Shown in pieces: positions 5,861 through 34,930 of a stretch of DNA of 34,934 nt. Numbering within the stretch: position 1 is the stretch's first letter; each line of letters begins with the position of its first letter. A program made the translations under genes and the position numbers. The notes beneath the pieces were generated by a model that worked only from the letters and a program-made list of their open reading frames with translations, was not told where the DNA came from and did not search any database. Origin of the DNA: Rhodocyclaceae bacterium (GTDB taxonomy: Bacteria > Pseudomonadota > Gammaproteobacteria > Burkholderiales > Rhodocyclaceae); the NCBI GenBank assembly GCA_003158255.1, contig PMIH01000193.1, positions 1 to 34,934 on the forward strand, written 5' to 3'.

Positions 5861-7780
5861 CTAGAACGCGCCAACGCCCCATCTAATACGGGGGATGCCA
5901 GCGAAATTTGTGTTGAAGCTCGATTGTATGGTTCCACCACTTAATGTCGGCGAGATCCTCGCTGGGCCCGCCTTCCTATAATCGTAAGGGGTGGTTCCAG
6001 GGACTGAGAAAGCAGCTGGTTCGAGGAGCAGAGGATCTGCGTACGTGCTGTTTATCCCGGTTTCGTTGCCGCTCGACTTCCACAAAGTTAGTTTCCCTTT
6101 GCCCAATCTGATGCCTGCGACAAGCGGGCTGGAGCCCGATATGCTGAAATAGTCGTTGAAATTTAGAGTCACACCGTCAATGGCGCCGGCAGCTTCGCTG
6201 AATATCAGGTCTCCCACAAAGCCGTAGATAATGTTGTTCACTATCGTCGTGTTGGTGCTATTGCGCCCATTGTCCCGCAGGTATATGCCGAAGATATCGT
6301 TGCCTCCGTAGGGTGCGCTGCTGCGGGGCATGATGATGGTGTTGTTGGCTAGCAGGACATTCTTCAGACCGTGCGTTGCCACTTTTTCGGAATAGTCCCG
6401 AATTCCGATTCGGCAACCGGCAATGATGTTGTTATATACCTTGGTGCCTGCGAGGTTGGCATGATTGTTGGTGCCATCGCTGGAGCTGTACTCATCAGCA
6501 AGCATCAGACAAACGCTGTACTTGGCGAGCGAGGTATCGCCGTTGATGAAATTGGCAGCGCTGGGCGGATGATTGAAGATGAAGTTGTTTCGAGCGGTGT
6601 CGTTGGCCTGATTGTCAAAGTATATATTGACGCTCCAATTGTCGTAAACCACGTTTTGCTCGAATATGGCGTGTCCGCTCTGGACGCCATTGACAGTGCC
6701 GTAGGACGCAATGCCTTCGCCGCCATTCATGTGGACGACGTTACCGCGGGCGAGCGGACGCAGGTTGGCGAACCAGGTCAAAGTTCCGGGCCAGCCGCCG
6801 CCAGCCTGATCGTAGCCGTTGTTGCCCCGGGGCCAGTTTGCCAGGACGTTGTGGTAGATATGGCTAGTGAGTACCACATTGTCGCTGTCGCCCGCTCCCT
6901 GAAAGGCAATAGCCGCCTTGCCATTAAACTTGATGACGCAACTGTCGACAGTGATGTGGCTGCCCTGACCCCAGATGCCATTGGATCCAGAACCGCGAAT
7001 GGTGAGGCCCTTGAATGTATAGTAATTGCCCCAGAAGAAAACATGCGCCTGATCCTCCACACTATTCGGCACAACGATATCGGCGTGGTTGGGGTCACCA
7101 GCCCCCACACTGGAAGTACCCATGTCGGCGATGATGTAGCCACCACCCACGTACCAGACGCCACTGCAACTAGTGACTTTTGATGGCTTGGTCACCTGTT
7201 TGAGTGGAACTTCATTGACGACCACGGCAGAGGGAGCGAAGGCAATGGGAGCGCTCCATACAGTGCCATCGACCTGAGTCCATGGTCCCACCTTGGTCGA
7301 ACCGTCGAGAATGACTTCACCGTCGCCATAGGAACCGAAGGTAATGGGTTTGCCTGTTGTACCGGAAGCATGACCATTCAGATTGATGCCTTCCCGGTAG
7401 AAACCTCTCTTGATGAGAACAGTGTCGCCTGCTGCAACAAGTCGCAAGGATCTGGCTATGGTCTTTAACGGAGCGGTAGCGGTAGTACCACTATTTGAGT
7501 TGTTACCATTGGCCCCGTCAACGTAGTACGTGATACCCGTGATCGAGGCAGGAACCGAAGGCGGATAGTGGGCGGCATCAAACACTGGCCACGGCATCTT
7601 TCCCACTTCAGCACCAACTTCGCGATTGTCCTGACAGTGATCGGCGTTGGCTGAGCCGTCCACAGTTCCGCTGTTTCCATGGAATGCGAACACAGCGACG
7701 ATTCCCATTGCCAGAACAATAAGAGCGGCACCGGTCCAGCGACGTTTGATTTTGGCGCTAGGTTGAACGGTCGAGCTCAA
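5861..7780 (-). CDS. Right-handed parallel beta-helix repeat protein, N-terminal TM anchor
   Basis: ITYYVDGANGNNSNSGTTATAPLKTIARSLRLVAAGDTVLIKRGFYREG and repeated N/G-rich rungs (RNNFIFN, VYNNIIAGC, IANNTIIM). TTG start overlaps the stop of the upstream paralog (TTGA). Confidence 0.85.
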   Translation of the reverse strand: MSSTVQPSAKIKRRWTGAALIVLAMGIVAVFAFHGNSGTVDGSANADHCQDNREVGAEVGKMPWPVFDAAHYPPSVPASITGITYYVDGANGNNSNSGTTATAPLKTIARSLRLVAAGDTVLIKRGFYREGINLNGHASGTTGKPITFGSYGDGEVILDGSTKVGPWTQVDGTVWSAPIAFAPSAVVVNEVPLKQVTKPSKVTSCSGVWYVGGGYIIADMGTSSVGAGDPNHADIVVPNSVEDQAHVFFWGNYYTFKGLTIRGSGSNGIWGQGSHITVDSCVIKFNGKAAIAFQGAGDSDNVVLTSHIYHNVLANWPRGNNGYDQAGGGWPGTLTWFANLRPLARGNVVHMNGGEGIASYGTVNGVQSGHAIFEQNVVYDNWSVNIYFDNQANDTARNNFIFNHPPSAANFINGDTSLAKYSVCLMLADEYSSSDGTNNHANLAGTKVYNNIIAGCRIGIRDYSEKVATHGLKNVLLANNTIIMPRSSAPYGGNDIFGIYLRDNGRNSTNTTIVNNIIYGFVGDLIFSEAAGAIDGVTLNFNDYFSISGSSPLVAGIRLGKGKLTLWKSSGNETGINSTYADPLLLEPAAFSVPGTTPYDYRKAGPARISPTLSGGTIQSSFNTNFAGIPRIRWGVGAF

Positions 7781-9783
7781 TAGGCGCCCATATTCCAGGT
7801 TGAACGGGAAGTGCCGGCGAAATTGACGGTAAATGAACTGGACAACGAAGCACCGGCAGCCGCAGCAGGTGAACCGGTGCCGACGTTAGCCTTGGCGTAG
7901 TCGTAGACCGGCGTCGTTGCCGCCGTAGCAGAGAAGGCGGTGGCATCGACCAACAGCGGATTGGTGTACTTGCTGTGGGTATCGACGCTTGCCTTCGACT
8001 GCCACCAGGCAAACGCACCGAAGGTGATCGAGTTGTAGCCAACACCGAATGGGCTTGCTCCCGCACTGCTGTAATAGTCGTTGTAATCGACAATGACGCC
8101 GCTGATCGCGCCAGCGACTTCACTGAAGATCAGTGGATCACCGGTGAAGCCGTAGACGATGTTGTTCTCAATGATGGAATTGGTGTTGCGGTTGACCCCG
8201 CTGGGCGAGGTGTTGTCCTGCAAATAGATGCCGTAGATGTTGGTGCTGCTGTAGGGTGACCCGCTAGCCGGCATGATGATCGTGTTGTTGGCAATTAGGC
8301 TGTTCTTCAAGCCGTGATACAGGATGGCGTGGGCATTGCCTTCCGAGTAGTCCCGGATGCTGATCCGGCAACCGGCCAAGATGTTGTTGTAGACTGAGGT
8401 ATGGTCAAGCGCGGCATAGTTGGTGCCTGAATCGCCGGAATTCTCCTCGTCGGCCAACATCAGGCACACGCTGTACTTGGCCAGACTGGCATCGCCGTTG
8501 ATGAAGTTGGCGGTATTGGGGGGATGATTGAAGATGAAATTGTTTCTGGCCGTATCGTAAGGCTGGTTGTCAAAGTACATGTTGACGCTCCAGTTGTCGT
8601 AGGCCATGTTCTGTTCAAAAAGGGCGTAGCCGCTGGAGACGCCGTTGGCGGAGCCATAGGAGAGGATGCCTTCGCCGCCATTCATGTGCACGATGTTGCC
8701 GCGGGCAACCGGGCGCAGGTTGGCATACCAGACCAGGGTGCCCGGCCAGCCGCCACCGGAGGCCGCATAGCCGTTGTTGCCGCGCGGCCAGTTGTCGAGG
8801 ACGTTGTGATAGATGTGGCTGGTCAGAACGGCGTTGTCGGTGTCGCCGGCGCCCTGGAAGGCCACGGCCGCCTTGCCATTGAACTTGATCTGACAGCTCT
8901 CGACGGTGATATGGCTGCCTTGGCCCCAGATGCCGTTGGAGCCGGAACCACGTATGGTCAGGCCCTTGAAGGTCAAGTAGTTCTGCCCCGCGAAGTAGAC
9001 ATGCTGCTGGGCTTCCTGCGTATTCGGGACGACGACGTCGGCAGTACTCGGGCTGGTAGTACCCAGGTCGGCGGTGATGGTGCCGGAACCCCGGTACCAA
9101 TTGCCACTACCGCTGGTGACGCTGGCAGCGGAACTCACTTGCTTGAGCGGGACTTCATTGACCACCACGGCCCGAGGGGTGAAGCTGACCGCGGCAGTCG
9201 AGACGGTGCCGCCGCTTAGCGTCCAAATGACCTTGGTCGAGCCGTCGACGATGACTTCGCCGTCGCCGTAGGCGCCAAAGGTGATCGGCTTGCCGGCACT
9301 GCCAGAGGCATAATTGCTCATGTCTATGCCTTCCCGATAGAGACCCTTGCGAATCAGAACGTTGTCCCCGGCCACGACGAGTGGCAGCGTCCTGCTGATG
9401 GTCCTGAAGGCCAAGGCAGCGCTCAAGCCGGTGTTGCTGTCACTGCCGTTCGTGCCGTCGACGTAGTAGGTCTTGCCCGTCGTCGAGGCGGCCACGGCCG
9501 GCGGATAGGTGCTTTGATTGAACAGCGTCCACGGACCCGTGATGCCGCTCACGTTGCCGCTGCCGATACTACCGCTGCCGCCGCTACTGGTTGTGCTTCC
9601 GGTGCTGCTACCGCTGCTGGTCGTACTTCCGGTGCTGCTACCGCTGCTACTGGCGTTGTTAGTCCCACTGCTGCTTCCAACAACATTGCTGGAATCTCCA
9701 CCTCCACCGCCGCCGCAGGCGACAAGCACGATAGTCAGAGAAGAGACTAGAACGAAAGTTCGGGTTCTTCCACTGGCTGTCAT
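7777..9783 (-). CDS. Right-handed parallel beta-helix repeat lipoprotein
   Basis: Lipobox-like LTIVLVAC|GGGG, a Ser/Gly/Thr linker, then a beta-helix region highly similar to the neighbouring CDS. Confidence 0.85.
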   Translation of the reverse strand: MTASGRTRTFVLVSSLTIVLVACGGGGGGDSSNVVGSSSGTNNASSSGSSTGSTTSSGSSTGSTTSSGGSGSIGSGNVSGITGPWTLFNQSTYPPAVAASTTGKTYYVDGTNGSDSNTGLSAALAFRTISRTLPLVVAGDNVLIRKGLYREGIDMSNYASGSAGKPITFGAYGDGEVIVDGSTKVIWTLSGGTVSTAAVSFTPRAVVVNEVPLKQVSSAASVTSGSGNWYRGSGTITADLGTTSPSTADVVVPNTQEAQQHVYFAGQNYLTFKGLTIRGSGSNGIWGQGSHITVESCQIKFNGKAAVAFQGAGDTDNAVLTSHIYHNVLDNWPRGNNGYAASGGGWPGTLVWYANLRPVARGNIVHMNGGEGILSYGSANGVSSGYALFEQNMAYDNWSVNMYFDNQPYDTARNNFIFNHPPNTANFINGDASLAKYSVCLMLADEENSGDSGTNYAALDHTSVYNNILAGCRISIRDYSEGNAHAILYHGLKNSLIANNTIIMPASGSPYSSTNIYGIYLQDNTSPSGVNRNTNSIIENNIVYGFTGDPLIFSEVAGAISGVIVDYNDYYSSAGASPFGVGYNSITFGAFAWWQSKASVDTHSKYTNPLLVDATAFSATAATTPVYDYAKANVGTGSPAAAAGASLSSSFTVNFAGTSRSTWNMGAY
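9566..9655. repeat. Low-complexity region with a 30-bp tandem repeat (two clear copies at 9596-9625 and 9626-9655) encoding an SSGSSTGSTT linker
   Basis: cttccggtgctgctaccgctgctggtcgta / cttccggtgctgctaccgctgctactggcg read directly. Confidence 0.8.
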
Positions 9784-9871
9784 TGGGAGTCGCTCAGTTC
9801 ATTGAATGGGGCCGATGGGACGACCAAAACGTCGCCTTGGGCAGGCCATGCAATTGTACGGCGATCATATG

Positions 9872-11233
9872 TCACGACTTTGACTGTCGTTTATCAACGA
9901 CGGCAGATTGGATGCTCAGCCCCTGCACCGCGTTCACTGGTGGTGGCACAAGTGCCGTTTGCCTTTCAAGTTCTAGCGTGTAGTACCGGGCGACTAGCCC
10001 CGACAAGATCCAGAAATTCCCCATGACTTCGCCGTTGAAAAACCGACTACCAAACAGATTGGCAAGAATTGCCGCGATTACCGAAATCTGAAATGCAGTA
10101 CCAAGGGACTTTGCTTCTTCCGATGTATTGACTTGCTCAACCTTTCGACTGAGATTCAAGAGACTACCTAACAATATCACGAGCACAATCAAGCCTTGCA
10201 CGCCCATTTCGGTGGTGACGAGGATATAGCCGTTGTGGGCATCGAACTTGTTATAGCCCGGCACATACCTCCCCATTTCCCGCGGGAAATGGTTGAGCCC
10301 AATTCCCCATGGCCGTTCCGCGATCATTTGACTGGCGCCTTCCCAGATGATGAAGCGGCTTTCCGTACTCTCATCCAATTTCTTCTCGCCTTGTTCGTCG
10401 GTTTGCTCCGTCATGGTGAGGCGGTCGACCACGCCTTCCGGCACCCACACATCGTAGTTGAGGATGGCCATGGTCAGCAGCACGCCGAGGAACAGATGCC
10501 CGCGCAACATTCTTAGAAGCAGCAGGATGGCGAGAATGAAATAGGCTTGGCGCGAGTAGGTGAAGAACGCGGCGAAGACGCCGAAAATACCGAAGGCCAG
10601 GGCGGCGAGGCGTACCGTGACGGCTGACTTTCGGTACAGGGCCAGGGAGATGAACAATGGAACGAAGATGACGAAAAATGCCGCAGCAAGATTGGAGCCG
10701 CTAGAGTCGACCGCGAACGGTCCGCCGGCGCGGCGGCTCTCGTTGTAGACCCCAAGGCCATAGTCGAGTGCCTGACGGAAAGCATGTACGGAAACAATCA
10801 GGGTTACGAACAGGATAGCGCCCAACAGAAAGCGAATGCTCTTGACATCGCGCACGCCATGGTAGAAGAGGAAGTAGAACAGCATGTAGAAAATTCCGCT
10901 CTTGAGCGCCGTAAGGTCTTCGGGCATCCTTGAGCCATCGTACAATTGACCAATCAGGAACGACAGCGTCAGAACGGCAAAGAACGACAGAAATATCCCC
11001 TTGAGTGGCGTTGGCGATTCGGTGCTCGACTTGCGAACGAGAATCATCAACAACGCGAACAGGAACATCGTGTTGATCAGATTGAGCCCCTTGATGTCAA
11101 TGACGACGGGGTAGTGATTCTGATAGGGGATATAGATGATGATTGCGGCCAGCAACAGATTAAGAACCGTTACGGCGGAACGAGGTGATGCTGGGTTTGA
11201 CCGATTATGAGAGTCGAGGGAAATATTCGTCAT
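9872..11233 (-). CDS. O-antigen ligase/polymerase family membrane protein (Wzy_C-like)
   Basis: Multiple TM segments and the motif ESRFIIWEGASQMIAERPWGIGLNHFPREMGRYVPGYNKFDAHNGYILVTTEMG. Confidence 0.85.
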   Translation of the reverse strand: MTNISLDSHNRSNPASPRSAVTVLNLLLAAIIIYIPYQNHYPVVIDIKGLNLINTMFLFALLMILVRKSSTESPTPLKGIFLSFFAVLTLSFLIGQLYDGSRMPEDLTALKSGIFYMLFYFLFYHGVRDVKSIRFLLGAILFVTLIVSVHAFRQALDYGLGVYNESRRAGGPFAVDSSGSNLAAAFFVIFVPLFISLALYRKSAVTVRLAALAFGIFGVFAAFFTYSRQAYFILAILLLLRMLRGHLFLGVLLTMAILNYDVWVPEGVVDRLTMTEQTDEQGEKKLDESTESRFIIWEGASQMIAERPWGIGLNHFPREMGRYVPGYNKFDAHNGYILVTTEMGVQGLIVLVILLGSLLNLSRKVEQVNTSEEAKSLGTAFQISVIAAILANLFGSRFFNGEVMGNFWILSGLVARYYTLELERQTALVPPPVNAVQGLSIQSAVVDKRQSKS

Positions 11234-13128
11234 TTCGCACCACCGACAGTCAGCCGACCGGAACCGCGCCGATCCAGATAGTTACGCGCCCACATTTCAT
11301 AGGTCAGAACTAGCCAGAGCAGTTCGCTGAAATCCTGCAACCCGGACAAGTGGCGCTCATAGCAAGCCCTGACGCCTTCCACATTGAAGATGCCACGTTG
11401 CCGGAATGAGCGGTCGGCAAGCAGGTCGAGCATCAATGGTTTCAGGTCAGCGCGGAACCATTTGGCCAATGGAATCCCGAATCCCTGCTTGCGCTTCTGT
11501 AGGCATTCGGCCGGCAACAAATCGGCCGCGACTTTCTTGAGTAGATATTTGCCGACTCGACCGTTGTTTTTGAGTGGGAACGGCAACCGTGCGCAAAACT
11601 CGAGCAGGACATGGTCCAATAGGGGCGCTCTGGCCTCAAGGGAATTGGCCATTGTCATGCGGTCCACCTTGACGAGGATGTCATCAACCAGGTAAGTGTC
11701 CATGTCGCCGGAAAGAATTCGCTCCATTTCCTCATCGATATCGGTACGCCCGAAATGGTCGCGAATACGCGCGTAGGGGTCTAGGCCGGCAACGTCCGCC
11801 GACAGCAGTGGGTTGACGTCGGCCGCGGTGCTCAGGGCGACGCCGGACAAGTAACGTTCTGGATAGGGCAGCGCCATGCGGTCGGCAATGCGCTGTAGCC
11901 GGATTCCCAGACTTCCGCCTGCCGCAGTACCGGCGAGTGAAAGCGCCGGACCGGCCATGCCGAGGGACAGGCGGGCCATTTTCCTGAGCTGCATGTATTT
12001 CCGGTAGCGCTCGTAGCCGGCAAAGCCTTCGTCGCCGCCGTCACCGGACAAAACCATTTTCACATGCGCCACTGCCATCCGCGAGACGATAAAGGTCGGG
12101 ATCGACGAGGCATCGCCGAACGGTTCGTCGCAATACCAGGCGAGGTCCTCGACCATGCCGATCGCGTCCGGCGTTACGACCAGTTCGTGATGCTCGGCGC
12201 CGATATGCTCGGCGATGCGACGGGCGTCGGGAATCTCGTTGAAAGCGTCTTCATTGAAACCGATCGTGAAGGTCTTCACCGGGCTCGACAGATGTCGTGC
12301 CATCAGCGCCGCGACGACGCTGGAATCAATGCCGCCGCTGAGAAAGGCGCCGAACGGCACATCGCTGACCAGTCGCAGGCGCACTGCCTCGTCGAGATGC
12401 TCCCTCAACCGGCGACTGAGCGTAGCTTCGTCATCTTGCCACTTCGGCCTGAAGTCGAGCTTCCAATAGCGCTGGGTGGCGACCGTGCCGCGTTCGAAGA
12501 CGAGGTAGTGGGCCGGCGGCAGCTTAAGTACATCATCGTAGATTGTTCCGGGAGCCGGGACGTAGCCGAGCGAAAAGTATTCCCGCGTGGCACTCTTCGA
12601 GACCGTCGGCGCGAAGCCGGGTACCGCGAACATGGACTTCAATTCCGAGGCGAATGCCAGATAGCCGTCGGCGGTACGCGTGTAGTAAAGCGGCTTCTTG
12701 CCCAGCCGATCGCGCGCCAGCACCAGCCGGTTGCGGGCAAGATCGAGGATGGCGATGCCGAACATCCCGCGCAGCTTGCTGAAGCATTGATCGCCATATT
12801 GTTCGTAGGCATGGACGATGCACTCGGTGTCGGAATTCGTATAGAACGAATGTCCGCACTGCTGAAGTTCCCGACGCAATTCCTTGAAGTTGTATATCTC
12901 GCCGTTGAAGACGATCCAGATCGACTTATCCTCGTTGTGGATGGGCTGGTGGCCACCGGCAAGGTCGATGATGCTCAGGCGACGCATGCCTATCTGCGCT
13001 TGCCTGTCGGCATAGATGCCCTGGTCGTCGGGGCCGCGATGCACGATCAGTTGGCACATTGCCTCGGCGATGGGCGCATCGGGCAGCGGTCTTTCCTGTA
13101 AGGATGCGATTCCTGCTATTCCACACAC
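11230..13128 (-). CDS. Asparagine synthase (glutamine-hydrolysing)-type amidotransferase, XrtA/PEP-CTERM system type
   Basis: MCGIAGIAS N-terminus with Cys2, HRGPDDQG, FNGEIYN, LSGGIDSSVVAALMA, LSGDGGDEGFAGY. Confidence 0.92.
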   Translation of the reverse strand: MCGIAGIASLQERPLPDAPIAEAMCQLIVHRGPDDQGIYADRQAQIGMRRLSIIDLAGGHQPIHNEDKSIWIVFNGEIYNFKELRRELQQCGHSFYTNSDTECIVHAYEQYGDQCFSKLRGMFGIAILDLARNRLVLARDRLGKKPLYYTRTADGYLAFASELKSMFAVPGFAPTVSKSATREYFSLGYVPAPGTIYDDVLKLPPAHYLVFERGTVATQRYWKLDFRPKWQDDEATLSRRLREHLDEAVRLRLVSDVPFGAFLSGGIDSSVVAALMARHLSSPVKTFTIGFNEDAFNEIPDARRIAEHIGAEHHELVVTPDAIGMVEDLAWYCDEPFGDASSIPTFIVSRMAVAHVKMVLSGDGGDEGFAGYERYRKYMQLRKMARLSLGMAGPALSLAGTAAGGSLGIRLQRIADRMALPYPERYLSGVALSTAADVNPLLSADVAGLDPYARIRDHFGRTDIDEEMERILSGDMDTYLVDDILVKVDRMTMANSLEARAPLLDHVLLEFCARLPFPLKNNGRVGKYLLKKVAADLLPAECLQKRKQGFGIPLAKWFRADLKPLMLDLLADRSFRQRGIFNVEGVRACYERHLSGLQDFSELLWLVLTYEMWARNYLDRRGSGRLTVGGAK

Positions 13129-13160
13129 AACATCAGTCCTTCATGAGTTGGCCGTTCGGA

Positions 13161-14342
13161 TCAACCGGCCTTGAATTCGTGCGTGGCGTTGAAGCCGTAG
13201 CACGTGATCAGTTTCTTGGTGACTGCTTCGAGAGAAGCGGTCGAGACGATGCGCTGCTGCGCCTTTTCGCCCATGGCACGGAGTGCCGGCGCGCCAGCAG
13301 CGGCGGCAAGCGCAAGGCAGCGCGCGAGGTCATCTCCGTCTCCAGGCTCGAAGAGCCAGCCCGTTTCGCCGGGAACGACGAAATCCTCGGTGCCGCTGAT
13401 TCTCGAACCGATGACGGGCAAGCCGGCTGCCATGTATTCGAGCAGCGAGTTCGACAAGCCTTCGGCAAGGGAGGTCAACAAGCCAAAATCGGCAATGGCC
13501 AAGTAGCGCGCGATGTCGTTGCTGTGCCCTGCGAAAACAACCTGCGTGCCGATACCCATTCGGTTCGCCACTTCGGTCAAATGTTGCCGCAGAACGCCAT
13601 CGCCGACCAGGACCAGTTTCGCGTCGGTACGTCTTGCAAAGGTCTCGGCCCAGGCGTTAAGCAATGACTCATGGTTTTTTTCGGGCGCTAGGCGGCCGAC
13701 AAATATGCCGACAATTTCGGCCGCGCCACACAGTTGTGCCCGGAGTTCGTGGTCGCGCCCAACGCGCGTGAAGCGACCGACATCAACGCCGTTGGGGAGT
13801 ACCAGTGTGCGGGTGGGATCGAAGCCGCGGTCGATCAGGGTCTGACGAATCCGTTCGCTCGTTGCCTGGATCAGCGTCGCCTGCCTGATGGCCAATTTCC
13901 GCAGCCGGGCGCCGAAGTTGGGATGTGGATCGAGAATCCCTCCCACCAGTTCCCGCATGCCGGTCAACTTCACAACAACCGGCTTGCCCAGCAGTTTCCC
14001 CATAATCGCCGCGACGGACGCCATGTTGTGCGCGATATGCGCATGAATTACTTGGTAGTCTCGACGGTGCGCGAACAGGAACCAGGCAAGCTTCGCCAAC
14101 ATGATGACGCCACCGAGGACCCGCATCCTGGGATAGGTGATGCGCATGACATCGAGGCGGTCGACATGCTCGCGCTCGGCTTGCGGTCCTTCTGCAACCC
14201 TGGGTACGACGACCAACACTTGAACACCGCCATCACTGAGGCGGCCGCCAAGCGTGAGCACCTGACTTTCGGCGCCGCCCCCACCGTACGCCGGGAACTT
14301 GGCCTCCAATACCATGACGACCGAACGCGGAGAATCAGCCAT
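13161..14342 (-). CDS. Glycosyltransferase family 4
   Basis: GT-B fold motifs: GGAESQVLTLGGRL, VFVGRLAPEKNHESLL..., LAEGLSNSLLEYMAAGLPVIGSRISG. Confidence 0.9.
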   Translation of the reverse strand: MADSPRSVVMVLEAKFPAYGGGGAESQVLTLGGRLSDGGVQVLVVVPRVAEGPQAEREHVDRLDVMRITYPRMRVLGGVIMLAKLAWFLFAHRRDYQVIHAHIAHNMASVAAIMGKLLGKPVVVKLTGMRELVGGILDPHPNFGARLRKLAIRQATLIQATSERIRQTLIDRGFDPTRTLVLPNGVDVGRFTRVGRDHELRAQLCGAAEIVGIFVGRLAPEKNHESLLNAWAETFARRTDAKLVLVGDGVLRQHLTEVANRMGIGTQVVFAGHSNDIARYLAIADFGLLTSLAEGLSNSLLEYMAAGLPVIGSRISGTEDFVVPGETGWLFEPGDGDDLARCLALAAAAGAPALRAMGEKAQQRIVSTASLEAVTKKLITCYGFNATHEFKAG

Positions 14343-18539: not shown

Positions 18540-18555
18540 GGATTCGAATGCGGAG

Positions 18556-20525: not shown

Positions 20526-20544
20526 GGGCGGTCGTTTACATGCG

Positions 20545-25333: not shown

Positions 25334-25587
25334 GGATCGTTAACGGGGGCTAACCGGCTTCGCCGCCAGCGACAGAAAGTCCGTCGATTCGACTAACAGA
25401 GCCGGGTCACCGCTGGTACAGGCAATTGGGATTTGCATACTTTTGATTGCACTTCGCTCAACGGTTGGACTTAAGTACCAAAATGATATAGCTAATTGGT
25501 TCGTAGCCCATCCGAGGTTGGTTGTTCTCACACTATTATTTACGTTGTTGGATGAGGATTCTGGCCAACGTTGTGCGTTGTTCGACA

Positions 25588-25616
25588 CGCGAGAAAATTA
25601 CGTATCGTTTCTCGTG
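25588..25616 (-). terminator. Hairpin just 3' of the minus-strand hydrolase CDS (possible intrinsic terminator or attenuator without a T-run)
   Basis: cgcgagaaa (25588-25596) pairs with tttctcgtg (25608-25616): 8 Watson-Crick plus one G-T pair, 11-nt loop. No strong U-tract follows. Confidence 0.3.
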
Positions 25617-25625
25617 CCAGAAGAG

Positions 25626-26522
25626 TCAAGTCGGCGCGACTTTGGCAGGATCTGTCGCAGTGCGAATGGCGGGCATACCGTGGCTCTCAACTATGCCGAG
25701 GATCCAGTTGCGAATCACGTCAATCAAACGATTTTGAGATCGTAATGACAGCAGGGTATGGTCAATTTCCGGCAAGAAATTGCATCGGACTTTGTCGACA
25801 AAGGGTTCGTCGGCGAATCCATCGCGAAATTGGCGTGCGTAGCTATATGCATCGATTACTCCACCGGAGAATATGAGGAAGATGGCGACACCACGATCGA
25901 CCAAAGTTTGTATGGCGTGGCAGTACTCGGCGCGCGGTGGGTTGGCAGTCGATTCGTCAGACGAAAATATATTTGCAGATTCCGATCCACCTTCGTGGCG
26001 AATTAAGCTCCAACTTCCTACAAGGCGACGGGCAATTGCTGTGGCAGCGCTTTTCCAAGTGCCGGCGCGGAATCTCTTCCAATGACGCACAAGACGCGAC
26101 CACCTTGTGCGATACCAGAAGCCGTCAAACATTAGAATCCCTGCAACACGTTGGTCAGCGAGGGCGGTCCAGTACGCATGAACTGCCCCTGAGCAGTTGC
26201 CGATTAGAATGAAACGCCGAACGCCATGATGCAGTTCAAGGTAGTCTATTGCTGATCGTACATCCACAACCGCTTGTTGCAGGAAATCACATTGAGTGCT
26301 GGCTGGGCGACTGTCGCCCAGGCCGCTCAAGTCAAATCGCATACTGGTAACGCCTTCGTCGGCCAATGCACGAGATAGTTTGACGTTGAATCGGTGTGGA
26401 CCGAGGCGTGGAATTACGCCTGCATTGAAGGTTAGGACGGCGATATCGCTGGTAACGATTGGTTCGCATACTATTCCGACCAACGATGCATTGGGGCCGA
26501 ACAGGATTGGAGTCTCTTTCAT
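25626..26522 (-). CDS. Alpha/beta-hydrolase fold protein, exosortase-A-associated hydrolase-1-like
   Basis: MKETPILFGPNASLVGIVCEP..., FDLSGLGDSRP, LIGNCSGAVHAYW, FLPEIDHTLLS. Confidence 0.75.
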   Translation of the reverse strand: MKETPILFGPNASLVGIVCEPIVTSDIAVLTFNAGVIPRLGPHRFNVKLSRALADEGVTSMRFDLSGLGDSRPASTQCDFLQQAVVDVRSAIDYLELHHGVRRFILIGNCSGAVHAYWTALADQRVAGILMFDGFWYRTRWSRLVRHWKRFRAGTWKSAATAIARRLVGSWSLIRHEGGSESANIFSSDESTANPPRAEYCHAIQTLVDRGVAIFLIFSGGVIDAYSYARQFRDGFADEPFVDKVRCNFLPEIDHTLLSLRSQNRLIDVIRNWILGIVESHGMPAIRTATDPAKVAPT

Positions 26523-27364
26523 GCGGTCTCCCCAACCTGCTGCGTTATAGCCATTAGGGCGTTGGTCGGAACCAACGGGGTATTACCAGCCGTATCGGTT
26601 GTCCAGTTGGTGCCGTGATTTACCACATATACCCTTACGCGGTCGGGATCTCGAATCTGGACTTGGGCAAAATCATTCCCTTCGGGACTGGTCGGCTCGA
26701 TAACGACATGGATGTCCACAGGATTGGTTGGCCACCTATGCGTTTCGATGGAAACCTCCGAAAGTTGTGTTCGAAACAGTGGCGAGATGGCAAAGCCAAT
26801 TGCTTCGTCGCGATAACATGTTAGGTCTTGAGCGACCTCGCGCGGTGCTAGTCGGAGTGGCAAGCTATATACGTTTTCAAGGCTTGTAACATGGCGCTCG
26901 CGCAAGAACTCGAGATAACGCGTGCCGTCGAGAATCGGATCCCAAAGAATGAGCCGCGATAAACCTATTGGAGCCACGTGGGTCGCTCGAAGTGCTACGG
27001 TTGCCCCCAATCGCATGCCAACCCAAACAACACGAATTGCACCGGAAAGGTGTTGGAGTTCTCCATGCGCCATCAGCAAATCGCCGGACCAGCCATCCAA
27101 ATCGCCATCGGCATCTTCGCCCATTGAGTCGCCCGTACCAAAATAGTCAAAACGCAGGACAGCATGACCCGCACGGGCTAATCGTTCAGCCAGTGAACGT
27201 TGAAAGCGATGGGCGCGGATCGCTTCCTGACCAAAAGCATTGCATAGTACGACTGCTGGGCGTGAGACGGTTGCCTGTGTTTGTGGCGCGTGATAAATAC
27301 CAAAAAGGCGACGGTTTGGCGCGCCAAATGCGATTGGAGTAACGTTGGTCTGCGCATTATTCAT
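26519..27364 (-). CDS. Alpha/beta-hydrolase fold protein, exosortase-A-associated hydrolase-2-like
   Basis: IAFGAPNRRLFGIYHAPQ..., VVLCNAFGQEAIRAHRFQRSLAERLARAGHAVLRFDYFGTGDSMGE. Start refined to ATG 27364 (ATGA overlap with the PPTase stop). Confidence 0.8.
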   Translation of the reverse strand: MNNAQTNVTPIAFGAPNRRLFGIYHAPQTQATVSRPAVVLCNAFGQEAIRAHRFQRSLAERLARAGHAVLRFDYFGTGDSMGEDADGDLDGWSGDLLMAHGELQHLSGAIRVVWVGMRLGATVALRATHVAPIGLSRLILWDPILDGTRYLEFLRERHVTSLENVYSLPLRLAPREVAQDLTCYRDEAIGFAISPLFRTQLSEVSIETHRWPTNPVDIHVVIEPTSPEGNDFAQVQIRDPDRVRVYVVNHGTNWTTDTAGNTPLVPTNALMAITQQVGETA

Positions 27365-28152
27365 TTTGTGCAATGAGCAAGTTTGCTGTAGGTAGTAACC
27401 CATGCTGTGGCGGCAACATACCCGATACCAACATCAATGTTCTCGACTTGCACTTGAACTGACTCCTCTTCTGTTCTTAGTTCTGCTAGTGCCGATTGTT
27501 TCGAAAGGCCAACGTGAAATGATCTCGGGGGGACCATCAGACCACAGCCCAAGGCTTTTAGGCAGGCTTCTTTGCGTGTCCATCCGCGCAAGAATGCACG
27601 CGAGCGTTCATGGGCAGGGGTGTCGCTCAATTCCCAGTACTCGCGCGAGGTAAAGTTCTGCTCGGCCAGTTGCCAAATATCATCGAACTCACGCAATTTT
27701 TCGATATCGACACCGATTTCGACGTAATCCACTATTCCAAGCAATGCGACATCCCCGCTATGACTAAGATTGAAGCGGCATGACTCGAGGGTGTTTTCTG
27801 CCTGAGCGATAGAAGGTTTTCCATGCCGGCCGGCATGGAACACGACCGACGTCGCGTGGCGAGCGAGGCGTTGTGCCAGGATTTCGCGCAATGCGCAATG
27901 TGCCGCCCGGTAGCGACGCCGATCATCTTCAAATATGAAGCGGGCGGCGCGAGCAGTCTCGTCACGGCTCAACCACATCTCGTGGTTTTGGAATGGGTAG
28001 GCCAACAGGTCTATCGTCCATAGCTCAATATTGCGTGGACCGGCGGGCAAGGCGGTCAGACCTACCGACAACGTGGCGCATGGATTGGACACGTTCTCTA
28101 TCGCAATCGTCGACGAATTGCCTGGGACACAGCTGGTACTCAACACATTCAC
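27361..28152 (-). CDS. 4'-phosphopantetheinyl transferase (Sfp-like)
   Basis: GKPSIAQ...CRFNLSHSGDVALLGIV, VGVDIEKLRE-type motif (EIGVDIEKLREFDD), FLRGWTRKEACLKALGCGL. GTG start. Confidence 0.9.
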   Translation of the reverse strand: MNVLSTSCVPGNSSTIAIENVSNPCATLSVGLTALPAGPRNIELWTIDLLAYPFQNHEMWLSRDETARAARFIFEDDRRRYRAAHCALREILAQRLARHATSVVFHAGRHGKPSIAQAENTLESCRFNLSHSGDVALLGIVDYVEIGVDIEKLREFDDIWQLAEQNFTSREYWELSDTPAHERSRAFLRGWTRKEACLKALGCGLMVPPRSFHVGLSKQSALAELRTEEESVQVQVENIDVGIGYVAATAWVTTYSKLAHCTK

Positions 28153-28166
28153 TGCAAAGGTGACTG

Positions 28167-31100
28167 TTAGGGGCGACGCCCGAAGCGACCGAGTACGCGT
28201 GACAAGAGTCCGGATTTGTCCGGCTCCACCGAGCGTGTTTGGTCGGCAGAGTCCGCTGCGGCAATCGTGGGTGACGGTACGCCAAGCTGATGTAGCGTTT
28301 CGTACACCATGCGCGATGGTTCTATCTTCAATCCCAGATCCTTCTCCGCATCGCTTACCGCACGCATTGCCAACAATGAACTGCCTCCCAGATCAAAGAA
28401 GTTGTCGTTGCCTGTGATTTGCCCAACGTCGATGCCCAGCAGTCGCGCCCAAATCGTGGCGAGACCAATTTCGTCGGCGCTCTCCGTTGCGGCGGCGGGC
28501 AGAAGTGCTTGATGGGATGAGCCATCGGCAATGCTTAACTGTCCTAGCGTTTCAAAAACAAAACGGCGTGGATCGATCTTGAGGCCGAGGTTCTTATCGG
28601 CTTCGGCTACGGCACGCATTGCGAGTAGCGAACTGCCACCTAGGTCGAAGAAGTTGTCATTACCATGAATCTGGTCGGGACCTACACCTAGCAAACGAGC
28701 CCACAACTCAGCGAGCGCGCGCTCGTTTGGCGAGTCAATTGTCCCCGCGCGTTCTGTGGCGACGATTGCGGGGCCTTTGGGGGCCGGCCTGAGCCATCCT
28801 GCAAGACGGCCATCCGCAGTGGACAACAATTCCGACGGTGAGCGACGGGGATCCTGCTCGATTTGATTGAGTACAGTTAGAAATGTTTCATGTAGCAGAC
28901 TTGCTGTGGACTCGTCATAAAGATCAGCGTTGTACATCAGCCCACCTTCCATTCCGCCAGGCCCCTCCATCAACCACAGTCCCAGATCCTGCGTAGCAGC
29001 ATGCTGTTTGACCAAAATATTTTCGTGGTGCAGCGGTCCCCACTCCCGGCGACGCTCCCGAGCATCCTGGAAAGAGAATAATGCCTGATAGAGACCGGCG
29101 GTCTTGATATGCTCAGCAACCTCGCTCTCCTGCACCAGTATTTCGAACGGGACATCCGCATTGTTGAACAGCTTGATGATCAGCGTCTTGACGGCACCGA
29201 GATTGGCCAAGAAAGGAGCATCCGCGGCAATGTTAACGTGGATGGGCATGAGGTTGGTGAAGAAGCCCATGATCGGCTCCAACACACTTTCCAGACGCCC
29301 ACGCACTGGCACGCCCAGCGCCACTTGTGAGTGGCCGAGGGCCGCCGATACAACAACCGCAAAGGCTGACATGCACAACATATTCAATGTTGCATCGTTG
29401 GTGCGCGCCAATTCGCGCAGCCGGTCCGTCTGATCTTTCGGAATCTTCACCCATAGCGTCGCGCCCGTGCCCGTCATGTGCCCGGCCCGTGGCCTGTCTG
29501 TACGCGGCAAAAGGTCGGGGTGGAGTGCCTTGTAGTGAGACTTCCAAAACCCGAGCTGTTGTGCGAACTCTTCACCCTTTAGCCAATCGGCATGCCAACG
29601 CGAGAAGTCTGAGTAAGTGACCTCGAGCGGCGGCAGTTGGTGCGGGCGTTCCTCCACAAGTGCACCGTATAACTCCGACATTTCTTCGTATAGCAGGTCA
29701 AATGACCATCCGTCCCAGACGAGGTGATGGGTGACGAACAGGAATACGTGCTCCTGGTCGCTCAAGCGATAGAGTTCGGTCCGCATCATCGGTGCGCGAT
29801 TCAGGGGAATCGGCGTGTCGATCGCAACCTGTAGGCGATTCATCAACTCTGATTCGCGGTGCGCGGGAGCTATTGCGCTCAAGTCGATAACAGGCAGGTC
29901 GACCAAGCCGGTTTCCTGTACCGACTGGATGTAGGCAGATCCGTTGGCAGACGTATCTGGAACGACGATGGTGCGCAACGACGGCTGTCGCTGCACCATC
30001 ATATTCAGTGCCTCACGGAACTTCGGCAAGTCGAGTGGTCCGCGCAACCGATGTGCTGAAGGGACCGAATACGCGACCGTACCGGGAAGCAGTTCCTCGA
30101 CAAATCTGACTCGTTCCTGCATAACAGTCGCTGGCGCTTGGCGTTGATCGGCCGACTTGACAAGCGCAGCTCGGCGCGGAGCGTTACTGCCTTTGGCCTG
30201 TTCGACCGCCTGCGCCAGAAGTGCTGCCGTGGGCGATTGGAACAGAACGCCCAAAGGCATGCTCACGGCGAAGTCGCGGTTCAGTTGCGCAATCAGGCGC
30301 GCTGCGAGCAACGAGTGTCCGCCCAGTGCGAAGAAATCGTCTTCTACGCCGAGTCCCGGGAGATTCAGTACCTTCTCCATGGCGTCGAGAACTTGCCGTT
30401 CCAGCGGGGTGCGCGGTGCAACGCGATCGCGTCCCGCAGACCGATGGAGGTCCGGCGGTGGTAGCGCGGCCCGGTTGATCTTGCCGTTCGGCAGCAGCGG
30501 CAATCGATCCATTGGAACAAAGTGCTGGGGCAACATATAGGCGGGCAGGGCGCCGCGCAGATGTTCGTTCAATGTGTTTGCGTCGGGTGCACCACCACGG
30601 GGCACGAAGTAGGCCACCAGCCTGACGTCGCCAGGAACATCTTCCCGCGCCATGACTACGGTTTGCGCCACGGCAGGATGGCTGTCCAAAGCCGCCTCGA
30701 TCTCCCCCAGTTCGATACGGAAGCCGCGCACCTTGACCTGGAAGTCGTTGCGACCCAAATGTTCGAGTAGTCCGTCAGCGCGCCAGCGGCCACGGTCGCC
30801 CGTGCAGTAGAGTCGGGGGCCGGGCGTGGTCGAGAATGGATCTGGGATGAAGCGTTCGGCGGTAAGTTCTGGTCGATTCAGATAGCCCAATGTGACGCCA
30901 TCGCCGCCGATCCAGAGTTCACCGGGGGTGCCGATTGGACAAGGCTGTCGACGCTCATCAAGAATCCATATTGTTGTATTGGCGATCGGTCGGCCGATGC
31001 TGATGAAAGAGTCAGTCGTAGTGACACGCCAACAAGTAGACCACACAGTGGTTTCGGTCGGCCCATACATGTTCCACAGTTCCCCGACTGCGGGGAACAA

Positions 31101-33380
31101 ACGCGCCGATAGATCGGGCGACAGCGCTTCACCTCCGATCAGCGCCTTGAAGCCTTTCGGACCGCGCCAGCCGGAGTCGAGCAGCATGCGCCAAGTCCCT
31201 GGTGTCGCCTGCATGAATGTAGCCTGGCTGCGCGACAACAGATTGGCAAGGGCGAGCGGGTCAAGTGCCTGATCGCGGCTGGCGAGCACGACTTGAGCGC
31301 CGACAGTCAGCGGCAGCAGCAGTTCGAGTACCGCGATGTCGAAGGAAAGTGTGGTGACGGCGACCAGTCGGTCGTCGGCACTCATACCGGGCTCATTCTG
31401 CATGCTGGTCAGGAAATTCACCACTGCGCGGTGATGTACCTGTACTCCCTTGGGTTTGCCCGTGGAACCGGACGTATAGATGACATAGGCGGCATCATCC
31501 GGCGTCGCGTCGAGCGTACCCGCGGCGGGCGGTGCGGCCGGCTGCGCGTCGATCAGGAAGGCATCGACATCGAGCAAGACGGTTTGTTCGCGGGGCCACG
31601 ACAGTAGAGCGGCCAGGGATGATTCGGAGACGAGGGCTGCCAGTCTGGCGTCTTCGGCCATGTAGTGCAGGCGGTCGGCCGGGTAGGAGGGGTCGAGCGG
31701 GACATAAGCTGCGCCACTCTTCAAGATGGCCAGTTGGCTGGCAACCATATTCAGGCCGCGCTCGACACAGAGGCCAACCAATTGGCCACGACCGACACCC
31801 CGGCTGCGCAGCAGGTTGGCGAGACGATTGGCGCGCTGATCGAGTTCTCGATAACTCAGTTGCAGGTCTCCGAAGCTGATGGCGACCTTTCCCTCCATCG
31901 CTTCCACCTGCCGTTCGATCAAGGCATGAATCGCGGTGTCCCGCGCGTATAAGCGCTTGGTGTCGTTCCAGGCAGAGATGCCGGAAAGATCCGCGTCGGT
32001 TGCTGAGAAGGCGCTCGCTACGGTGACGTCGGGTTTCGACACGGCGCGTTCCAATGCAACTCGATACAAGTCGAGCCAGCGCTGTACTGTCTGCCGATCG
32101 AAAAGATCCGTGTTGTATTGCAACTCAAGCAGGATTCCGGATTCCAGCTGGCTCGCGTTGAGGAATAACTCGAAGTTTTCGAAATGGCGCGGATTTGACT
32201 GGAGATCGACGCGCAGTCCGGCGAGGGAAAGTTCCTTCGGAGAAATCCGTGAATCGAGATTGAAGAGTACGCCGACTAACGGAAGCCGGCTTGGATCGCG
32301 TTGCATCTGGAGCTTCTGAAGTATGCCGCCAAACGTACTGGACTGGTGTTCATAGGCGTCAAGGACTCGACTGCGCGTTTCGCCGATCAGCGTGGAAATG
32401 GGAGTGTTGTGATCAGTTGCGACGCGAATTGGCAGCAAGTTCACGCAGTGCCCGACCAGCGCATCCTTGCCCGAGGCTGATTGTCCTGCTGCAGGGACGC
32501 CAACAACCACATCGTCGCTGCCGGAGAGGCGTGCTACGAGGCCGGCAAACATTGCAAACATGGTCGCGAACAGGCTGGCACCCTGACGTCCGCCGTACTG
32601 ACGGACGGCACTGACCAACTGAGCTTCGATCAGCAGATCCTCGCGCCGCGAAGCGAATGTACGTCGGGGAGGACGCGGGTGATCGCATGGCAGCTGGAGT
32701 ACCGGTGCCGACGCGTTGTACAGCGACACCCAGTACTGAGTGTCACTCTCCGCAGCGGTCGCGTGCTCGGCATCGCGCTCGGCGATGGCGTAGGCGGCAA
32801 AGCTCTCAGCGGAAGCGAGTCCGTCGGGTCGTCCGGCGTCAAGCGCTGCATAGAGCTTCATCAGTTCGGGAGCGAGTATTCCGAAAGACCAGCCGTCGCA
32901 AATGACGTGATGACCGGTAAGAACTAGCTCGAACCTATCGTTCGCCAGAACGGCAAGGGTTGCTCGGAAAAGCGGTCCGTTCGAGAGATCAAACGGAGTT
33001 TCCACCGCGGCCGTACGCAGGCGGAACAGTGTGGTGTTGCGTTCACCTTCCATAACGCCAGATAACTGCACGACATCCGCTGCTAGTTGTCCTTGGGCAG
33101 CAATCAGGAGGCTCATGCCGTCATCAGCCACAGTTGCTCGTAGCGACTCATGTCGCTTCGACAGCGCTTGCAGCGCTTGCTGCAACGACTTGAGATTCAG
33201 CGCGCCATCGATATGTAACGACACCGACTCGTTATAAGCGAGTGATGCCTCAGTGCCTAGCTGGCAAGCCAGCCATATTTCCCGCTGAGCTTCCGTTGTC
33301 GGCGCGACGCGCTGTAGTTCTGGTTCGGCAAATGGGTCATAGTCGACTTCTATGGCGGTGGGTTGCACGGAATTCATCAT
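28167..33380 (-). CDS. Nonribosomal peptide synthetase, domain order C-A-T-C-T-T, no thioesterase
   Basis: C1 (about 33310-32000) LTGHHVICDGWSFG; A (about 31990-30470) YVIYTSGSTGKPKGVQVHHRAVVNF, YGPTETTVWS, NGKINRAAL; T1 (about 30420-30210) DDFFALGGHSLLAARL; C2 (about 30165-28830) VTHHLVWDGWSFD; T2 and T3 each with GNDNFFDLGGSSLLAMRAV. Coordinates of domains are approximate. Confidence 0.95.
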   Translation of the reverse strand: MMNSVQPTAIEVDYDPFAEPELQRVAPTTEAQREIWLACQLGTEASLAYNESVSLHIDGALNLKSLQQALQALSKRHESLRATVADDGMSLLIAAQGQLAADVVQLSGVMEGERNTTLFRLRTAAVETPFDLSNGPLFRATLAVLANDRFELVLTGHHVICDGWSFGILAPELMKLYAALDAGRPDGLASAESFAAYAIAERDAEHATAAESDTQYWVSLYNASAPVLQLPCDHPRPPRRTFASRREDLLIEAQLVSAVRQYGGRQGASLFATMFAMFAGLVARLSGSDDVVVGVPAAGQSASGKDALVGHCVNLLPIRVATDHNTPISTLIGETRSRVLDAYEHQSSTFGGILQKLQMQRDPSRLPLVGVLFNLDSRISPKELSLAGLRVDLQSNPRHFENFELFLNASQLESGILLELQYNTDLFDRQTVQRWLDLYRVALERAVSKPDVTVASAFSATDADLSGISAWNDTKRLYARDTAIHALIERQVEAMEGKVAISFGDLQLSYRELDQRANRLANLLRSRGVGRGQLVGLCVERGLNMVASQLAILKSGAAYVPLDPSYPADRLHYMAEDARLAALVSESSLAALLSWPREQTVLLDVDAFLIDAQPAAPPAAGTLDATPDDAAYVIYTSGSTGKPKGVQVHHRAVVNFLTSMQNEPGMSADDRLVAVTTLSFDIAVLELLLPLTVGAQVVLASRDQALDPLALANLLSRSQATFMQATPGTWRMLLDSGWRGPKGFKALIGGEALSPDLSARLFPAVGELWNMYGPTETTVWSTCWRVTTTDSFISIGRPIANTTIWILDERRQPCPIGTPGELWIGGDGVTLGYLNRPELTAERFIPDPFSTTPGPRLYCTGDRGRWRADGLLEHLGRNDFQVKVRGFRIELGEIEAALDSHPAVAQTVVMAREDVPGDVRLVAYFVPRGGAPDANTLNEHLRGALPAYMLPQHFVPMDRLPLLPNGKINRAALPPPDLHRSAGRDRVAPRTPLERQVLDAMEKVLNLPGLGVEDDFFALGGHSLLAARLIAQLNRDFAVSMPLGVLFQSPTAALLAQAVEQAKGSNAPRRAALVKSADQRQAPATVMQERVRFVEELLPGTVAYSVPSAHRLRGPLDLPKFREALNMMVQRQPSLRTIVVPDTSANGSAYIQSVQETGLVDLPVIDLSAIAPAHRESELMNRLQVAIDTPIPLNRAPMMRTELYRLSDQEHVFLFVTHHLVWDGWSFDLLYEEMSELYGALVEERPHQLPPLEVTYSDFSRWHADWLKGEEFAQQLGFWKSHYKALHPDLLPRTDRPRAGHMTGTGATLWVKIPKDQTDRLRELARTNDATLNMLCMSAFAVVVSAALGHSQVALGVPVRGRLESVLEPIMGFFTNLMPIHVNIAADAPFLANLGAVKTLIIKLFNNADVPFEILVQESEVAEHIKTAGLYQALFSFQDARERRREWGPLHHENILVKQHAATQDLGLWLMEGPGGMEGGLMYNADLYDESTASLLHETFLTVLNQIEQDPRRSPSELLSTADGRLAGWLRPAPKGPAIVATERAGTIDSPNERALAELWARLLGVGPDQIHGNDNFFDLGGSSLLAMRAVAEADKNLGLKIDPRRFVFETLGQLSIADGSSHQALLPAAATESADEIGLATIWARLLGIDVGQITGNDNFFDLGGSSLLAMRAVSDAEKDLGLKIEPSRMVYETLHQLGVPSPTIAAADSADQTRSVEPDKSGLLSRVLGRFGRRP
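28270..28735 (-). repeat. Tandemly duplicated carrier (T/PCP) domains at the NRPS C-terminus
   Basis: LWARLLGVGPDQIHGNDNFFDLGGSSLLAMRAVAEADKNLGLKIDPRRFVFETLGQL versus IWARLLGIDVGQITGNDNFFDLGGSSLLAMRAVSDAEKDLGLKIEPSRMVYETLHQL. Confidence 0.9.
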
Positions 33381-34930
33381 CCAACCTTCATGTATTTGCC
33401 GGGACCGGCGGGATTAGCTACAAACCATGCGGGACGACCCTGCTCGTCGCGGCCGAGTCGCGCGCCCGGAACGGGGGGGGCAGATGCATCAATGGAGACA
33501 ACCTTTGCAGCTCGATGCGGCAGGAAATCGGCTTCCTGCAACTCCAGTACTGATTCCTTAAAGGCCGCTTTGATTGCATTGAAGTCTTCCGTCGTGTGCG
33601 CAGTGGTAAAGAAGCACGGGAAATTATCGAGGATGTGAATACCTCGAGTACGCATCATGGCGAACAGCAGGTCTTGGAATGGATGGTCTTCGAGGAAGAA
33701 TGTCTTCCAGACGGAAGCGAAGGACTTGACCGCAATCGGGGCGCCAACTTCATTGCAGAAGGCATTTAGTTCCTCAATCATGTCGGCTGTCCGCTGCGTC
33801 AGCGCTGCCTGCAACTGCGGTCCCTCTCGCTTCAGATGTTCAAGGACAGCTTTCGCCGCAACCAGAGCCAGCGGATGGCGTACGAAGGTTCCTGCGAAGT
33901 AGGTGACGCCGACGGTGGGAATCGAGTCGTCGCCGAAGTTCCATTGGCCACCGTCAAGGGCATCCATGTATTCGCGTTTTCCAGCGATTACGCCGATCGG
34001 GAAGCCTCCGCCGACTACCTTGCCATAAGAGGCGAGGTCGGCACGGATGCCGAACAAGGCCTGGATACCTCCGGGATGACTGCGGAAACCTGTGACCACC
34101 TCGTCGAATATGAGCAGCGATCCAGATTCTTCGGTCAGCTTGCGCAAGTCGCGCAGGAATTCCACAGGTTGAAAATCGGGGCGACGGCTTTGAACGGTTT
34201 CCACGAGAATGGCGGCGAGTTCGCTGGCGTTGTCCTTGAGCCACTTGAGCGACTCGGGCGTGCCGTAGTCCAGAACGACGACATTCTCGGCTGTGTTCGG
34301 CATGATGCCCGGCGCGGCCGGAACGGCCCTGAGTTTCTTGGTTCCGCGCACGATGACTTCATCGAAGATACCGTGATAGGAACCGGCGAAGATGGCTATT
34401 TTGCTGCGACCGGTCACGGTGCGAGCAATACGAATGCAGCCCATTACAGCCTCTGAACCGGTATTGCACAGTCCTGCGCGATCATTGCCGGTCACTTCGC
34501 AAAACAGCTTTGCGACTTCACCGGCCAGCGGGTGCTGGGGGCCGATGTCGTAGCCATCATCGAGCTGTTTGCGTACGGCATCCAGAATGAAGTCGGGCTG
34601 CCAGCCAAACATGCTCATGCCGAAACCATTGAGCGCATCGACATACTCGTTGCCGTCCAGATCCCACATGTGCGAACCTTTGGAACGCTCGATCACGATT
34701 TGATAAATGATTTCCTTCAATTGCGGCCGGAAGCCGTTGACGACGCGCGGGTCTGCGAGGTGGGGTCGATGTTCGACGGTGTACGCCTTCGACTTCTTGG
34801 TGCGCTCAATGTAGCGCCGCATAAATGCGTCGAGGCGGGCTTGCTGTCTGTCGGTCAGCGAGGTACCGCCTGAATCGGTGTGAATGCGCGCAATTGCGCC
34901 AAACGCTTTCTTGACGTCGTATTTGATCAT
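33377..34930 (-). CDS. Class-III PLP aminotransferase (AMT domain of PKS/NRPS hybrids, GSA-aminomutase-like); probably the C-terminal part of a longer protein
   Basis: HRPHLADPRVVNGFRPQLKEIIYQIVIERSKGSHMWDLDGNEYVDALNGFG, NTGSEAVMGCIRIARTVTGRSKIAIFAGSYHG, LIFDEVVTGFRSHPGG, YGKVVGGGFPIG. The Met at 34930 is 4 bases from the window edge, with no stop upstream in frame. Confidence 0.88.
   Translation of the reverse strand: MIKYDVKKAFGAIARIHTDSGGTSLTDRQQARLDAFMRRYIERTKKSKAYTVEHRPHLADPRVVNGFRPQLKEIIYQIVIERSKGSHMWDLDGNEYVDALNGFGMSMFGWQPDFILDAVRKQLDDGYDIGPQHPLAGEVAKLFCEVTGNDRAGLCNTGSEAVMGCIRIARTVTGRSKIAIFAGSYHGIFDEVIVRGTKKLRAVPAAPGIMPNTAENVVVLDYGTPESLKWLKDNASELAAILVETVQSRRPDFQPVEFLRDLRKLTEESGSLLIFDEVVTGFRSHPGGIQALFGIRADLASYGKVVGGGFPIGVIAGKREYMDALDGGQWNFGDDSIPTVGVTYFAGTFVRHPLALVAAKAVLEHLKREGPQLQAALTQRTADMIEELNAFCNEVGAPIAVKSFASVWKTFFLEDHPFQDLLFAMMRTRGIHILDNFPCFFTTAHTTEDFNAIKAAFKESVLELQEADFLPHRAAKVVSIDASAPPVPGARLGRDEQGRPAWFVANPAGPGKYMKVG

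Follow-up and report, generated by a model that had tools for sequence, protein, structure and literature searches.

Relation to described systems

Hybrid assembly lines of polyketide synthase (PKS) and nonribosomal peptide synthetase (NRPS) modules that contain an aminotransferase domain (AMT) include MycA of the mycosubtilin/iturin systems and McyE of the microcystin system. In these hybrids, a KS-AT-T-AMT series of domains is followed by C-A-T (C, condensation; A, adenylation; T, carrier), and a β-amino acid is formed. To our knowledge, few multi-modular peptide or polyketide assembly lines serve a secreted polysaccharide. We describe here a 34,934-nucleotide stretch of DNA from a Rhodocyclaceae bacterium (contig PMIH01000193.1; hereafter, the window), in which a two-protein PKS/NRPS line is encoded in one gene run with genes for exopolysaccharide (EPS) synthesis. 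The best single reading of our data is that a short peptide made by this line decorates the EPS covalently, a tentative reading to which we give slightly less than an even chance.

The line resembles MycA and McyE in having KS-AT-T-AMT and then C-A-T. However, its loader appears to be of the amino-acid type rather than a fatty-acyl ligase, its chain is very short, a thioesterase (TE) domain is absent, and EPS genes lie alongside. Another parallel is the D-alanylation of teichoic acids by DltA and DltC, in which an adenylation protein and a carrier protein supply a single amino acid with the help of a membrane acyltransferase. The window line would similarly supply a polymer of the cell surface with an acyl group by way of an adenylation domain and a carrier, but its parts are a PKS/NRPS of several modules and a soluble Cys α/β-hydrolase pair.

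Canonical exosortase A (XrtA) EPS loci, marked by ligase_PEP_1 (TIGR03098), dCO2ase_PEP1 (TIGR03099), hydr1 (TIGR03100) and hydr2 (TIGR03101), share with the window their export families, an AsnB-like family and a Cys/Arg pair of hydrolases. These loci have a single adenylation ligase and a pyridoxal phosphate (PLP) decarboxylase, whereas the window has a two-protein PKS/NRPS in that place. The window also differs in that its hydr1, hydr2 and asnB1 proteins score below the curated cut-offs, and exosortase A was not found in the genome, which is ~85% complete. A floc-forming EPS/PEP-CTERM system has been described from Aquincola, among related bacteria (PMC9850573). EPS biosynthesis is combined with PEP-CTERM in that system as it is here, and the parts of that paper drawn on here do not name an NRPS. 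In the open-licence literature searched, an NRPS of this type inside an EPS locus was not found.

The PKS/NRPS assembly line

The contig (C188 of the window genome, G000) is 68.9 kb long, and its first 34.9 kb make up the window. From position 34933 down to 5861, the (−) strand is a single gene run in which several neighboring genes, among them AMT with NRPS and hydr2 with hydr1, share a 4-bp overlap. All the parts named in a sequence-only reading of this DNA (AMT, NRPS, 4'-phosphopantetheinyl transferase (PPTase), two hydrolase folds, a FemAB-like protein, Wzx, a polymerase, five glycosyltransferases, two deacetylases and two amidotransferases) are present on this strand:

33377 to 34933, (−): AMT, a class III aminotransferase (PF00202), the C-terminal end of the PKS
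28167 to 33380, (−): NRPS, C-A-T-C-T-T (PF00668 twice, PF00501 once, PF00550 three times)
27361 to 28152, (−): PPTase, Sfp/HetI-like (PF01648; NF042922 below cut-off)
26519 to 27403, (−): hydr2-type α/β-hydrolase with Arg131 (TIGR03101, 91.4 bits; cut-off 202.75)
25626 to 26522, (−): hydr1-type α/β-hydrolase with Cys110 and His255 (TIGR03100, 73.1 bits; cut-off 168.45)
24164 to 25333, (−): FemAB/GNAT-like (Acetyltransf_6) protein (PF13480, 130 bits; TIGR03019, just 24 bits)
22705 to 24219, (−): Wzx flippase (PF01943/PF13440)
21519 to 22697, (−): GT2 glycosyltransferase (GT2 family matches)
20545 to 21522, (−): polysaccharide deacetylase 2 (PF01522)
19734 to 20567, (−): polysaccharide deacetylase 1 (PF01522)
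18556 to 19737, (−): GT2 glycosyltransferase, PgaC/MftF-like (profile search)
17340 to 18653, (−): GT4 glycosyltransferase (profile search)
16199 to 17398, (−): GT4 glycosyltransferase (profile search)
14335 to 16191, (−): asnB2, an AsnB-like synthetase without the glutaminase Cys, SGGTDS kept (motifs; TIGR03108, 270 bits, below the cut-off of 816.9)
13161 to 14342, (−): GT4 glycosyltransferase (profile search)
11230 to 13128, (−): asnB1, a TIGR03108-like AsnB-type amidotransferase with Cys2 (motifs; 626 bits, below the same cut-off of 816.9)
9872 to 11233, (−): Wzy polymerase (Wzy_C, PF04932)

Past the window, as far as about C188:40285, the AMT reading frame runs on through sequence for A, T, KS and AT domains. 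Extending the contig upstream, which had been suggested as a way to define the PKS, thus identified the AMT as the C terminus of an A-T-KS-AT-T-AMT protein that is otherwise absent from the window itself. Breaks in the window-genome PKS frame coincide with N gaps in the assembly and are therefore an assembly effect, with no sign of decay. The orthologue in another genome of the genus, G003 (L025:6473-13855, − strand), is an unbroken A-T-KS-AT-T-AMT protein of 2460 aa, and the idea that the split PKS is a pseudogene was rejected on these grounds.

Domains and motifs of the PKS were read in the G003 orthologue, the window-genome copy having N gaps. They are unimpaired: HTACSTS in the KS, GHSVG and HAFH in the AT, which we take to indicate the malonyl type, and the PLP lysine motif GKVVGGG in the AMT. 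The loading A domain looks amino-acid-type, with Asp235 present. In the NRPS are found HHxxxDG twice, three carrier Ser motifs, and A3, A8 and A10; the protein has no TE, and its second C domain has no A domain of its own. All the components of an AMT-containing PKS/NRPS hybrid (KS, AT, carrier, class III aminotransferase, C, A and T) are thus present with unbroken motifs. The recovered protein, A-T-KS-AT(malonyl)-T-AMT, supports at the level of domain content the β-amino-acyl unit that the sequence-only reading had proposed. The first 239 aa of the PKS (L025:13139-13855) match no Pfam domain. Matches in the PDB to the C termini of C domains are weak and non-significant (E 1.4-1.7), and hint that this region may be a vestigial or truncated condensation domain.

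The A-domain code of the NRPS is DILQLGMVW in genome G045 and in the window, where it was read by hand from an alignment with G045, versus DISDITGVW in G003. The former is reminiscent of glycine codes. Between the NRPS of the window and that of G003 (L025:1278-6476), the A-domain region is far more diverged than the C domains. Together with the differing codes, this divergence suggests a probable A-domain exchange between the two same-genus species.

Distribution and association with EPS genes

A pattern scan of genome contigs with the NRPS alignment confirmed 333 relatives, the best 80 of which come mainly from Burkholderiales and Lysobacterales. The AMT domains of relatives are 66-84% identical to that of the window. 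The PKS/NRPS pair is an unnamed family. A Dyella silvae (Lysobacterales) protein is C-A-T-C-A-T by Pfam, and the lengths and codes of others point to this arrangement as well. The pair is sporadic both within the genus of the window organism (a high-identity match in 2 of 6 genomes) and within its order, where 7 of 399 sampled genomes match at E 1e-180. In the AMT tree, a contig labelled Nostoc sp. CHAB 5824 (L100) nests inside a Pseudoxanthomonas clade and is probably contamination, and a Planctomycetota metagenome-assembled genome (MAG; L073) forms a long branch among Burkholderiales.

The functional coupling to EPS machinery proposed in the sequence-only reading is supported by synteny, by linkage and by co-occurrence. 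In G003, whose NRPS orthologue is 69% identical, the cluster keeps the order Wzy, asnB1, asnB2, two GT4, GT2, two deacetylases, Wzx, hydr1, hydr2, PPTase, NRPS, PKS. The arrangement is thus shared, near-syntenically, by two species of the genus; counterparts of the FemAB-like gene and of two glycosyltransferases are missing from the G003 gene calls. More broadly, 26 of 49 genomes with the pair have a Poly_export gene on the same contig no more than 40 kb away, versus 0 of 40 other condensation-domain (NRPS) loci among those listed from the same genomes (Fisher p ~3e-9, uncorrected for relatedness). The EPS-linked class rises to 33/49 genomes (26/26 Lysobacterales and 7/23 others) if a flank that holds two or more EPS-type genes is also counted.

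The genus of G045 presents a different situation. On contig C6 of G045, the PKS, NRPS and PPTase stand by themselves, and contig C2 carries an EPS locus with export, ChnLen, TyrKin, ATPase, Wzx, deacetylase, GT2, GT4s, asnB2, asnB1, Wzy and hydr1. In G218, of the same genus, Poly_export and hydr1 lie close to an asnB2 homologue (49%) at 514-516 kb, and the PKS is at 1.94 Mb. Such separation of window-type EPS genes from the pair was seen in the two genomes of this genus that were looked at. PKS/NRPS plus hydr1 (two copies each) occur in eight of nine genomes of the genus; the one exception, a genome that is 81% complete, lacks both. This is the expected look of a functional link without physical linkage, although the counts are small. 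For the window lineage and the Lysobacterales, EPS coupling is well supported.

The hydrolase pair and a possible route to the polymer

Predicted models of hydr1 (mean pLDDT 85) and hydr2 (pLDDT 89) both have the α/β-hydrolase fold. The nucleophile elbow of hydr1 is GxCS[GA], with Cys in 47/47 aligned proteins, and in hydr2 the nucleophile position is occupied by Arg in 48/49. In the alignments used for folding, C110, D254 and H255 are invariant in hydr1, as is R131 in hydr2. These residues and folds would allow hydr1 to become acylated as a thioester-type enzyme intermediate, and make hydr2 a probable pseudo-enzyme that acts as a partner without catalysis of its own. Foldseek matches to the hydr1 model are general esterases, which do not fix its function. 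Both proteins relate to the curated families TIGR03100 and TIGR03101 but miss the cut-offs, and so are not members. The same Cys/Arg pattern is found in canonical exosortase-A loci (WGLCDAAS in hydr1, WGLRLGA in hydr2); in one such locus, hydr2 and hydr1 adjoin ligase_PEP_1, a stand-alone adenylation ligase, with dCO2ase_PEP1 nearby. In the same-genus genome G001 (C22; L030/L031), a different, larger NRPS cluster is followed by hydr2-hydr1, CoaBC and a type I secretion adaptor gene, and EPS genes were not seen in this region.

We propose that the product of the two-protein line is a short peptide with a β-amino (possibly β,γ-diamino) acyl unit at its start, and that this peptide is handed to the EPS pathway. 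The loading A domain would place an amino acid on T1, the KS and the malonyl-type AT would extend it by two carbons, and the AMT would convert the resulting β-keto group to a β-amine. C1-A2-T would add a second residue, and C2 would move the growing chain onto the tandem T domains, which are presumably loaded by A2 because a third A domain is absent. With no TE, hydr1, through its Cys nucleophile and together with the Arg-bearing hydr2, would probably remove the chain as a thioester. The two hydrolases would then either release the chain or load it onto the sugar repeat unit, where an amine exposed by a deacetylase could be the acceptor, and such a transfer would place the peptide covalently on the polysaccharide. 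Flipping, polymerization and export of the repeat unit would fall to Wzx/Wzy together with the XrtA-type export proteins.

A more comprehensive proposal is that the β-amino-acyl peptide of the whole unnamed PKS/NRPS family is installed covalently on EPS by the Cys/Arg hydrolase pair, with the ligase, decarboxylase, hydr1 and hydr2 of XrtA loci forming a one-module version of the same system. We consider this proposal unlikely as it stands. If the window line does serve a secreted polysaccharide, polymers that bear peptides could be common among Proteobacteria of soil and water. A testable role for hydr1 and hydr2, families that NCBIfam names merely as hypothetical "hydrolases," also follows from the resemblance to ordinary exosortase-A loci. 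Cultured strains of Luteibacter, Dyella, Lysobacter and Variovorax carry the PKS/NRPS pair, which makes the pair accessible to experiment.

Alternative explanations

Several observations weigh against covalent decoration of EPS. An EPS neighborhood is absent in 16/49 genomes with the pair, mainly Variovorax and Xenophilus, and in many of these unlinked loci the NRPS still has PPTase, hydr2 and hydr1 as neighbors. In the flanks read of three Rubrivivax-labelled MAGs, the closest kin outside the genus, neither a glycosyltransferase nor Wzx was seen. Dyella and Luteibacter loci are without hydr1 and hydr2 nearby; thus, the hydrolase pair cannot be a universal transferase. Finally, most genomes with the PKS/NRPS pair have no asnB2 match at E 1e-40 (3 of 31 matched). 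A universal EPS link is thus not supported, and the coupling is frequent and lineage-dependent, not obligatory. The sequence-only reading had held that homologous modules located mostly away from EPS genes would speak against it; this is not the distribution overall, but it is the distribution inside Variovorax and Xenophilus.

The main rival explanation, which is possible although we lean against it, is that the product is a free secreted small molecule (an antibiotic, signal or metal binder) that is merely co-regulated with EPS or trapped in it, with hydr1 and hydr2 acting as type II thioesterases or release enzymes. The PKS-NRPS-PPTase-hydr2-hydr1 loci that lack EPS genes in Variovorax/Xenophilus and in a Piscinibacter-like genome are consistent with a free metabolite, as are the position of hydr2-hydr1 after a different NRPS cluster and near a secretion adaptor gene in G001, and the adjacency of PPTase and hydr genes to the NRPS in many loci. 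However, the Lysobacterales sampled are all EPS-linked, whereas other NRPS loci of the same genomes are not. Moreover, the genus of G045 has hydr1 in EPS loci, in two copies, apart from the NRPS, and canonical XrtA EPS loci hold hydr1 and hydr2 without any NRPS.

A second alternative concerns asnB2. The glutaminase Cys is present in asnB1, but asnB2 lacks it and retains the PPi loop SGGTDS, a pattern common to the window, G003, G045 and a canonical XrtA locus. Judging from these motifs, asnB2 may couple a uronate with an amine in place of ammonia. β-Lactam synthetase, which couples an amine, is a model for a scheme in which asnB2 (14335-16191), and not hydr1, joins the peptide by adenylating the carboxylate of a uronic acid and coupling the amine of the NRPS product. 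The motif pattern favors this scheme, as does a fragment of a TviB-like UDP-sugar 6-dehydrogenase gene upstream of the PKS. However, the few matches among the 31 genomes argue against it, and asnB2 may simply modify uronates with another amine. We therefore regard the scheme as improbable; asnB2 as a universal attachment enzyme is rejected, as it is missing from most pair-carrying genomes.

A chance neighborhood, in which a mobile NRPS/PKS island sits functionally unlinked in the EPS locus, is highly improbable: the sporadic occurrence in the genus and rarity in the order sample are consistent with horizontal transfer, but the linkage is repeated in several lineages and many glycosyltransferase contexts, and the genes are interleaved with 4-bp overlaps.

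Exosortase type and other features

The remainder of the window holds the following genes:

1 to 5567, (+): XrtA-type EPS export set, TIGR03027, TIGR03007, TIGR03018, TIGR03016 and TIGR03015 (family profiles)
5861 to 7780 and 7777 to 9783, (−): tandem paralogous β-helix-like proteins (PF14592, 21-22 bits, below cut-off)

The TIGR03027 gene is 5'-truncated at the contig edge. The other (+) strand families exceed their curated cut-offs (bits/cut-off: TIGR03007, 475/279; TIGR03018, 281/231; TIGR03016, 298/91; TIGR03015, 414/325), in agreement with the "exosortase-A-type" label of the sequence-only reading. However, the only exosortase that turned up in the ~85%-complete window genome is of type XrtB (TIGR03113, 304 bits, versus TIGR03109, 110 bits with a cut-off of 208) and lies on another contig, C125. 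Therefore, the label should be softened. In G045, an exosortase was not found despite the window-type EPS locus. Dependence of the PKS/NRPS-EPS link on exosortase A is not supported, given the type B enzyme elsewhere in the window genome and this locus in G045. The C125 region (L039:10291-14409) is a second EPS locus, with the XrtB-type exosortase, a B-type EpsI, GDP-sugar and glycosyltransferase genes, and further EPS-like genes.

No RNA elements were detected at the gathering threshold, and a promoter and terminator scan of ~24000-28400 gave signals no better than those of shuffled sequence. A PDB search with the FemAB-like protein returned zero homologues. DUF218 genes recur near PKS/NRPS pair loci across several lineages (L160:10130-11062; cluster 26, for example L047:21400-22206). 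The two β-helix-like genes at 5861-9783 are additional to those mentioned in the sequence-only reading; their weak similarity to Chondroitinase B makes polymer-acting lyases a possible assignment.

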